DNA of 32,544 bases, taken from NCBI GenBank assembly GCA_022841565.1, contig JALHRH010000017.1:1-32544 (forward strand). Reading direction: 5' to 3'. A program made the position numbers and the translations under genes. The stretch's first letter is position 1. Every line of letters starts with the position of its first letter. This document shows, piece after piece, positions 17,992 through 19,951 of the stretch. The DNA is from Mycobacterium sp. (lineage in GTDB: Bacteria > Actinomycetota > Actinomycetes > Mycobacteriales > Mycobacteriaceae). The notes below the pieces were generated by a model, which was given only the letters and a program-made list of their open reading frames with translations, was not told the origin of the DNA and ran no database searches.

Positions 17992-18330
17992 CTACGACGC
18001 ACGTAACTCGGCCTTGTGCCGCGGGCAATATGCATCGATGGCAGCTCCGACGAAGAACCCGGAGTGATAGGCCGGCATGCTGCTGCTGTTCAGCACGTCG
18101 TTCGCCACGTCGTTGGGTGACATGCCGTTGTCGAGTTTGACGCAGACGAAATGGCCGGCCTCGATCGCGTGCGCGTTGGATACGTGGTCGGTGATGCCCT
18201 CGGATCTCAGAGCGGCTAGAAACTTGTCGTCAGTCGTGTCAGCGTGAGCGATTCCGACTGCCAGCGGGCCAGGCATCGCCGCCAGCGCCACAATAGTGAC
18301 AACACGTATCGCCCTAACCCGCATGTCCAT
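17992..18330 (-). CDS. Secreted DUF732-family protein
   Basis: A complete 112-aa DUF732 protein. Residues 1-30 are a signal peptide ending GIAHA, with cleavage likely before DTTDDKF. The mature domain has FLAALRSEGIT, Cys63 (HFVCVKL), a turn LDNGMSPNDVA, and Cys102 in the terminal AIDAYCPRHK; the two cysteines may form a disulfide. Function is unknown for the family. It sits between PE19 and the PstS3-like gene and is absent at this place in M. tuberculosis. ATG 18330 follows GGGAGC. It points toward PE19, with a 306-base gap, so co-transcription is possible but not shown. Confidence 0.88.
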   Translation of the reverse strand: MDMRVRAIRVVTIVALAAMPGPLAVGIAHADTTDDKFLAALRSEGITDHVSNAHAIEAGHFVCVKLDNGMSPNDVANDVLNSSSMPAYHSGFFVGAAIDAYCPRHKAELRAS

Positions 18331-18841
18331 TCAGCTGCTCCCGCGACGTATGACTTACTGGACTAGCCGAAACTGCGATCATCGAAGGGGTCGGCTTTCT
18401 GAGATCCAATTTTCGCCGCCGCCGAACGACAGTTCCAGGTGGGCGGCTCGTTGTACACATTTTGTTTACCCGCTCGCCACGTGCGTAGTGGCGCAGCTAA
18501 CAATTCAGCGGTCAGAACGTCGCGACGCGACCGTCCAGGACGCGTTCACGTCGGCGTGGAGTTTCCTTGCTTCAGGACCCGTACGAAAAGCGTGCTTGGC
18601 TGATCCGGTTGGTCGTGTGCGCGTAGCGATTTGCCGGATCCCCTGAACGGGTCGGCGAGTCTCCCATACGGCGACAACTGAATTGCCGTTCACGATGCGG
18701 TTATTGGAAAGCCACTTAGCGTTAAGTTGTGACATACCACAGTTGCTTAGGGTTTCGCGGTGCAGCCGACAACATCGAGGAGGTTGTTCGATCGGGTGCT
18801 ACGCCGAGTCCAATCTCGTTTCCTGAATCAGAGGACCTGAA
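18331..18841. promoter_or_regulatory. Divergent intergenic region, DUF732 gene / pstS3-like gene
   Basis: A 511-base stretch between two diverging genes, with no supported gene. It should contain promoters for both. GTTCACG at 18688-18694 followed by GGTTATT at 18699 vaguely resembles phosphate-regulator (RegX3) direct repeats, too weak to call. AGAGGAC just before 18842 is the Shine-Dalgarno of the pstS3-like gene. Confidence 0.4.
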
Positions 18842-19951
18842 TTGCAACTGAACCGACCCAGCGCTGCTCTCGTTGTTGGTGCAGCCGCGTTGGCGCTGGC
18901 TGGGTGTGGCGGCCAAGCCACATCGGGCGCACCGAATCCGGGCACCGGCACATCCTCAGTAAGCGTCAGTTGTGGAGGAAAAAAGACGCTCAAGGCCAGT
19001 GGGTCGACAGCCCAGGTTAACGCAATGACCCGATTCGTCAGTGCGTTCGAGCATGCTTGTTCGGGGCAGCGGGTTGCCTACACCGCAAACGGGTCGGGTG
19101 CTGGGATCCGCGAATTTGTGACTAATCAAACCGATTTCGGGGGTTCGGATTCGCCCCTAACCCCGGGTGAATACGCCGACGCCCGGCAACGTTGTGGGTC
19201 GCCGGCGTGGAACCTGCCGGTGGTGTTCGGACCCATCGCCATCACCTATCACGTCGACGGGGTTTCGGCGTTGACGCTGGATGGCCCGACAGCGGCCAAG
19301 ATCTTCAATGGCACTATCGCTACCTGGAATGACCCTGCGATCGCGGCGTTAAATACAACTGAGCGGCTGCCCGCTGAACCCATCCGCGTGGTCTATCGCA
19401 GCGACGAATCCGGAACGTCGGACAACTTCCAGCGCTATCTCGACACGGCTTCCGCCGGCGCCTGGGGCAAAGGTGCTGCAAAGCAGTTCAGGGGCGACGT
19501 CGGCGAGGGGGCCGAAGGCAACGACGGTACCGCTGCGGCCGTCAAGCGCACCGAAGGAGCGATCAGCTACAACGAGTGGTCGTTCGCTCAGGCGCAACAC
19601 CTAGACATGGCCCGCGTCATCACCTCGGCCGGTCCTGACCCAGTAGCCATCGGCCGCGATTCCGTCGCGAAGACGATCGCGTCCGCCGGCATCATCAACA
19701 AGAACAACGATCTGGTACTCGATACGATCTCGTTCTATCGGCCGAGCGAGCCCGGTTCCTACCCGATCGTGCTGGCGACGTATGAGATTGTCTGCTCGAA
19801 GTATCCCGATGCCCAGGTGGGCGTCGCAGTGCGGGCCTTCCTGCAAAGCACCATTGGTGCGGGCCAGACCGGCTTGGCGGACAACGGCTATATCCCCATT
19901 CCGGACGCGTTTAAGTCGCGCTTATCGACCGCGGTGAATGCCATCTCCTGA
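18842..19951 (+). CDS. PstS3-like phosphate-binding lipoprotein
   Basis: A 369-aa periplasmic phosphate-binding protein of the PstS family, closest to PstS3 (Rv0928) among those I remember. The start is TTG at 18842 after AGAGGAC. The lipobox is LAGC with Cys22 as the lipidated residue. Ligand-site motifs are intact: ASGSTAQ (52-58), NGSGAG (83-88), DFGGSD (98-103) and RSDESGTSDNF (186-196). It ends IPDAFKSRLSTAVNAIS as PstS3 does. PstS delivers phosphate to the PstC-PstA-PstB transporter, but no such genes are nearby. It is the only plus-strand gene within the PE19-PPE26 interval and converges on the PPE26-like gene, 22 bases away. A duplicated pstS3 placed in this locus is the likely origin. 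Confidence 0.93.
   Translation: MQLNRPSAALVVGAAALALAGCGGQATSGAPNPGTGTSSVSVSCGGKKTLKASGSTAQVNAMTRFVSAFEHACSGQRVAYTANGSGAGIREFVTNQTDFGGSDSPLTPGEYADARQRCGSPAWNLPVVFGPIAITYHVDGVSALTLDGPTAAKIFNGTIATWNDPAIAALNTTERLPAEPIRVVYRSDESGTSDNFQRYLDTASAGAWGKGAAKQFRGDVGEGAEGNDGTAAAVKRTEGAISYNEWSFAQAQHLDMARVITSAGPDPVAIGRDSVAKTIASAGIINKNNDLVLDTISFYRPSEPGSYPIVLATYEIVCSKYPDAQVGVAVRAFLQSTIGAGQTGLADNGYIPIPDAFKSRLSTAVNAIS

Follow-up and report, generated by a model that had tools for sequence, protein, structure and literature searches.

The ESX-5 locus of M. tuberculosis has the order eccB5-eccC5-cyp143-PPE-PPE-pe19-esxM-esxN-espG5-eccD5-mycP5-eccE5-eccA5, and the phosphate-binding lipoprotein PstS3 of that species is Rv0928. 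According to excerpts of the published work, the esx-5 genes of M. tuberculosis are bound by RegX3 and are under its control (PMC6016242), and pe19 shows RegX3-dependent overexpression in a pstA1 mutant (PMC5513712). Excerpts also report that PE19/PPE25 and PE32/PPE65 are involved in phosphate influx in M. tuberculosis (PMC12607722, citing Wang et al.), and PE19 is linked to PPE51 and to sugars in part of a review (PMC12209268). In M. marinum, PPE31, MMAR_2686 (the Rv1810 homolog) and mgtC are described, again in an excerpt, as induced by low magnesium (PMC4278808). The window analyzed here, a stretch of 32,544 nucleotides, makes up most of contig C17 of a Mycobacterium sp. draft genome (G000) and carries a pstS gene and a DUF732 gene inside an ESX-5 locus.

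Gene organization of the locus

The ESX-5 locus is full in the window, on the minus strand, with an insert located between a PPE gene and the PE gene at the pe19 position. This insert is made of a DUF732 gene (minus strand) and pstS (plus strand), arranged head to head over 511 bases. The features are the following:

15417..16319, minus strand: espG5 (Pfam EspG)
16428..16712, minus strand: WXG100 gene, esxN position (Pfam WXG100)
16773..17069, minus strand: WXG100 gene, esxM position (Pfam WXG100)
17386..17685, minus strand: PE gene, pe19 position (Pfam PE)
17992..18330, minus strand: DUF732 gene, 112 aa (Pfam)
18331..18841: divergent intergenic region between DUF732 and pstS
18842..19951, plus strand: orphan pstS, predicted PstS3-type phosphate-binding lipoprotein, 369 aa, TTG start, lipobox LAGC with Cys22
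19974..21212, minus strand: PPE gene, 3' end convergent with pstS (Pfam)
21263..22477, minus strand: second PPE gene (Pfam)
22985..24190, plus strand: P450 gene, cyp143 position (Pfam)

The gene order in the window is EccB, P450 (on the opposite strand), two PPE, the insert, PE, two WXG100, EspG5, EccD, subtilase, EccE and EccA. Pfam matches identify, on the pe19 side of the insert, PE, two WXG100, EspG, EccD, a subtilase at the MycP place, EccE and EccA, and on the other side the two PPE genes, the P450 and EccB. It is the joint presence of EspG, EccB/D/E/A, a subtilase, a WXG100 pair and PE and PPE genes that assigns the locus to ESX-5, EccC being assigned by place; the names PPE26 and PE19 are likewise names by position. 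The G+C content of the insert is 60.4% vs. 64.9% for the window, which is a small difference. As the 3' end of pstS faces the neighboring PPE gene, pstS lies, by orientation, outside the PPE transcript.

Two further observations concern the flanks. Downstream of eccA5 the window holds five PPE genes (6–8267), followed by a partial DUF732 match (6–152, minus strand) at the contig end. An extra PPE-PE-PPE set, absent from the window, precedes cyp143 in four relatives (L115 164–2976, L118 2519–5328, L121 2298–5111, and L122 4734–7548); eccC5 is found just beyond this set in three of them and beyond the fetched stretch in L115.

The PstS and DUF732 proteins

The PstS protein of the window scores 338.5 bits against the NCBIfam PstS equivalog TIGR00975, above its cut-off of 205, and 555.7 bits against M. 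tuberculosis PstS3 (PDB 4lvq) over query residues 1–368. It contains the lipobox LAGC with Cys22, this cysteine being present in all 15 sequences of the clade described below, in some of which other lipobox positions vary. The phosphate-ligand positions, set by E. coli PstS numbering, are kept at T56, S85, D103, R186, D188, S190, G191, and T192, and these eight positions together with Cys22 are identical in 15/15 clade sequences; the ninth (F11 in E. coli) corresponds to A57 and is an alanine in PstS3 too. When the clade is compared with 17 PstS sequences from pst operons, just two columns of residues 40–369 differ at the 90% level, suggesting that the permease-facing surfaces are likely kept. 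Aligned orthologs have the TTG start codon at the same place in 10/10 cases, and GAGG or AAGG precedes it; the database gene call on this contig comprises 308 aa, 61 residues fewer than the 369-aa open reading frame.

The DUF732 protein exceeds the gathering cut-off of Pfam DUF732 (PF05305), with 75.5 bits vs. 22.4. Its hydrophobic N-terminus looks, by eye, like a signal peptide and the protein is predicted to be secreted. The predicted structure is a five-helix domain (mean pLDDT 82), Cys63 and Cys102 are invariant, and a search for structural relatives of the model gave none that was convincing. Both genes are under purifying selection in the seven genomes with the insert (21 pairs), with dN/dS values of 0.13–0.26 for pstS and 0.03–0.24 for DUF732.

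The same genome has five PstS matches: the window copy, two on contig C6, one on C40, and one on C104. Contig C6 carries pstS3-pstC2-pstA1, pknD and pstS2; on C104, an ABC ATPase gene comes after a pstS-pstC-pstA run. The window protein is 73% identical to the operon PstS3 of its own genome. Its gene does not belong to a pst operon, a convergent PPE gene rather than pstC or pstA lying downstream. PstC2 and PstA1 have no match anywhere in the window, and the 48 ABC-ATPase and 23 ABC-permease Pfam matches of the genome all fall on contigs other than C17. The original prediction of a complete PstS3-type gene with lipobox and ligand motifs, next to a DUF732 gene between the PPE and pe19 positions and away from any Pst permease or ATPase gene, is thus borne out by the open reading frames, by the TIGR00975, PF05305 and 4lvq matches and by these contig-wide searches. 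As a separate observation, in locus L128 (13378–15568) a Ku gene directly adjoins pstS2, without the pstB-pstS1-pstC1-pstA2 genes in between that are located there in M. tuberculosis.

Distribution of the insert and of the PstS clade

A genus sample of 297 genomes was screened for ESX-5, marked by EspG5 at E ≤ 1e-80, which retained 119 genomes. The pstS-DUF732 pair lies between a PPE gene and pe19 in at least seven of these 119 (G000, G120, G203, G006, G228, G047, and G045), a lower bound since it was counted among the matches listed and contig breaks in the esx genes are frequent in the drafts. The carriers include M. gordonae DSM 44160 (G120), M. camsae (G203) and M. kiyosense (G045); for G120 and G047, which have a contig break in the esx genes, the place was read from PPE, pstS, DUF732, pe19, and esxM on one contig. 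Two DUF732 copies are present between the PPE genes and pe19 in each of G203 and G045, the second copy of G045 being located between PPE and pstS. In five other genomes (G237, G161, G026, G211, and G007) DUF732 is found between the PPE genes and pe19 with no pstS there, G161 having two more PPE genes in between. Among the best 80 of 125 named ESX-5 loci, which may leave out records close to that of the window, none shows PstS at E ≤ 1e-10; only the roughly 35 loci that, as read from the table, extend beyond pe19 are informative on the insert. In one further genome, G010, an open frame that is methyltransferase-like by eye takes the place of pstS (L166 4250–5291), and the DUF732 gene and the upstream block 1 described below are kept at ESX-5.

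Further PstS loci were picked from the match list, not at random, giving 54 PstS sequences in all, 18 of them in or beside a pst operon and 36 elsewhere. A DUF732 gene is found within 2 kb in 31 of these 36 (7 in ESX-5, 3 in satellite blocks, 21 other) and in the remaining five, one of which is the pstS2 of a pst locus, there is none. In the tree, the window PstS falls in a distinct clade of 15 sequences (100/99), of which seven are from ESX-5, three from satellite blocks and five from elsewhere (G161 M. basiliense, G026 M. spongiae, G062 M. scrofulaceum, G038, and G059). A divergent DUF732 gene stands beside pstS in all 15, with 293–656 bases between the matched ends, and the 15 pstS-linked DUF732 copies belong to one group of 17 (100/99) in a DUF732 tree that has few columns; the two other members come from G010 and from G203, the latter being a second copy in ESX-5 without adjoining pstS. 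Eight of the 15 pairs lie outside the ESX-5 slot (34 kb from espG5 in G026), indicating that the place at pe19 is not needed for retention of the pair. The satellite block, made of a cyp143-like gene, two PPE genes, pstS and DUF732 without esx genes, occurs in M. szulgai, M. angelicum and an M. simiae strain (L117, L120, and L126), whose main ESX-5 loci have their own, more distant cyp143 (68–70%) and no pstS match. Together with the ESX-5 loci that have DUF732 only, these blocks suggest that the cyp143-PPE-pstS-DUF732 flank behaves as an exchangeable or movable block.

Outside this clade, a second orphan PstS set of 16 sequences from slow growers (L132–L139, L142, and L144–L150) lacks pst permease genes and has DUF732 genes, between one and three of them, at a distance of at most 2 kb. 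A PPE gene is close by in 4/16. This shows that an orphan PstS with DUF732 neighbors recurs in slow growers; a literature search for PstS and DUF732 together found no paper. On a cross-species comparison, then, the insert is conserved in several species, so that it is not confined to one strain, the outcome named beforehand as speaking against the original prediction. The proposed tie to ESX-5 holds as far as recurrent placement goes and is weakened by the wider occurrence of the pair: judged from these sequences, the pair is not an ESX-5 invention and its clade is wider than ESX-5.

Upstream regions

The elements considered upstream of pe19 and in the pstS-DUF732 intergenic region are the following:

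17783..17789, minus strand: GTGAACA upstream of pe19, in 22/22 aligned ESX-5 loci
17816..17835, minus strand: pe19 upstream block CGCTGTTACTGTGTCGTTAC, near-invariant in the 22 aligned ESX-5 loci
18450..18481, plus strand: block 1, three 11-base units GTACACA-GTTTACC-CGCCACG, candidate Pho/RegX3-type element
18686..18753, plus strand: block 2, CCGTTCAC ... CGTTAA ... TTAGGGT, candidate pstS promoter region

The pe19 upstream words CTGTTACTGTGTCGTTAC and GTGAACA (window 17783–17835) are highly conserved in the 22 aligned ESX-5 loci. Loci that carry the insert share these words with loci that lack it, so the insert has left the pe19 upstream region intact. In the intergenic region it is blocks 1 and 2 that stand out in an alignment of ten orthologs, and GTTCAC and GTTTACC elements are conserved upstream of pstS. 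For comparison, the relevant sites are given in excerpts of the literature as a Pho/RegX3-type consensus GT/GTCAcc-n4-cG (PMC7884335) and as an inverted GTGAAC repeat (PMC7525159). Block 1 lies 120 bases from the DUF732 start in the window, and since it is found at about the same distance from DUF732 in G010, which has another frame for pstS, it may serve DUF732 first.

A three-unit 11-base repeat passes a shuffle test (p ≤ 0.05) in 12/15 clade upstream regions and a two-unit repeat in 3/15, counts that are not independent, the upstream sequences being related. Among the 12 that pass, the best triplet has no one common place: it falls in block 1 in five and nearer pstS in seven. The upstream regions of pst operons (300 bases vs. 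450 for the clade) pass in 1/10 cases with three units and in 0/10 with two, and the repeat model is therefore only weakly validated. A matrix built from the 22 pe19 GTGAACA sites passes in 1/15 clade sequences and in 1/8 pst-operon regions, with nothing above chance upstream of pstS in the other 14 clade sequences. Thus, conserved elements exist upstream of pstS, and a RegX3 site common with pe19 is not shown by the matrix or repeat scans. Shared regulation with pe19 had been proposed together with a RegX3-type matrix scan; the placement beside the pe19 region is real, and the scan with the pe19-built matrix passes in only 1/15. The further suggestion that PstS signals to ESX-5 or depends on it gains no support from these sequences. 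Overall, the observation underlying the original prediction is confirmed and extended, and its interpretation is partly supported.

Proposed function and alternatives

Our preferred reading, held tentatively and at a little short of an even chance, is that the window gene is a pstS3 paralogue serving as an extra phosphate catcher beside PE/PPE genes and feeding PstC2-PstA1 in trans. A PE/PPE channel of the outer membrane, encoded beside pstS, would let phosphate in, and the PstS lipoprotein would take it over from the channel for delivery to the PstC2-PstA1 permease, whose genes lie elsewhere. Docking in trans is plausible given that two columns only separate the clade from the 17 operon sequences. 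DUF732 might help PstS in the periplasm, and low phosphate might induce the pstS-DUF732 pair. Two observations make such a functional link attractive: PE19/PPE25 reportedly participate in the phosphate influx of M. tuberculosis, and a PPE-PPE-DUF732-mgtC run in the genome of the window resembles the magnesium-responsive M. marinum locus. Counting against it are the eight of 15 pairs outside the slot, the 14 of 15 upstream regions in which the pe19 matrix fails and the weak validation of the repeat model, as well as the G010 locus without pstS, the DUF732 matches of the complete genome G203, of which 5/20 are near a PPE match and 15/20 are not, and the DUF732 model without a convincing relative.

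The main rival is passive co-location, in which a portable pstS-DUF732 cassette for ordinary phosphate scavenging, with no functional tie to ESX-5, reached the ESX-5 flank by recombination, this region being rich in PE, PPE, and DUF732 copies. We consider it possible though doubtful, and on present evidence nearly as likely as the phosphate catcher. It accounts for the pairs found elsewhere, for the satellite blocks without esx genes, for the five genomes in which DUF732 already stands between the PPE genes and pe19, and for the missing motif in common with pe19 in 14/15. What argues against it is that the seven ESX-5 and three satellite sequences form one clade (99/93) and that the arrangement is held across species whose pstS genes differ by dS values of 0.43–1.26. 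An alternative in which the pair is located here since the phosphate-responsive pe19 region offers or shares its RegX3 control appears improbable. The RegX3 binding and regulation of M. tuberculosis esx-5 genes described in the excerpt of PMC6016242 would fit with it, as would the conserved GTTCAC and GTTTACC elements and the upstream regions that pass the three-unit test. However, block 1 is also present in G059, G062, and G038, in which espG5 and the pair are on different contigs, so that block 1 goes with the pair rather than with the pe19 promoter; moreover, the best triplets are divided between block 1 and positions nearer pstS, a pe19-type site is missing in 14/15, and only 1/10 pst-operon regions pass the repeat test. 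Very improbable, finally, is a role as a released antigen or surface protein, that is, a lipoprotein that is for the most part released in vesicles or displayed on the outside and acts apart from transport. PstS1 and LpqH are indeed released in membrane vesicles by M. tuberculosis under RegX3 control, but in the same excerpt this release is independent of ESX-5 (PMC6016242), and the window protein and its clade keep the phosphate ligands and differ from operon PstS3 in two columns only.

Starting from the phosphate-catcher reading, a broader and rather unlikely extension is that the locus would encode a complete outer-envelope phosphate path, with an ESX-5-exported PE/PPE channel, a lipoprotein that catches phosphate and, as a helper in the periplasm, DUF732; it would be a twin of the PPE-DUF732-mgtC magnesium locus. 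If this were true, PE/PPE nutrient channels would have DUF732 as their partner in the periplasm. The open questions touched upon are the passage of nutrients across the mycobacterial outer membrane and the roles of PE/PPE proteins and of the DUF732 family, for which the arrangement provides a testable partner set (phosphate-binding lipoprotein, DUF732, and PE/PPE proteins with phosphate-linked counterparts) in species such as M. gordonae.

Comparison with known systems

The gene order around the insert is the same as in the M. tuberculosis ESX-5 locus; unlike the window, the latter is not known to have a pstS or DUF732 gene before pe19. The window protein resembles M. tuberculosis PstS3 in full-length similarity, lipobox and ligand residues, and its gene shares the TTG start with the pstS3 operon copy of the same genome. 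In contrast to the gene of the pstS3-pstC2-pstA1 operon, the window pstS has no adjoining permease gene, belongs to a separate clade, is paired with DUF732 and lies within ESX-5. The second orphan set is similar to it in being PstS3-like, without permease and with DUF732 neighbors, whereas it falls outside its clade and has DUF732 genes of other groups. For the DUF732 gene, a parallel within the same genome is found on contig C97 (L186 961–4776), where the genes of a PPE-PPE-DUF732-mgtC run are all co-directional and PPE and DUF732 overlap at their ends. Rv1810 is presumably a DUF732 protein, in agreement with this order. The Rv1810/MMAR_2686-mgtC locus with PPE31, described for M. tuberculosis and M. 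marinum, shares with the C97 run a gene between PPE genes and mgtC; it differs from the insert in responding to magnesium, not phosphate, and in that its DUF732 gene is co-directional with PPE and mgtC.
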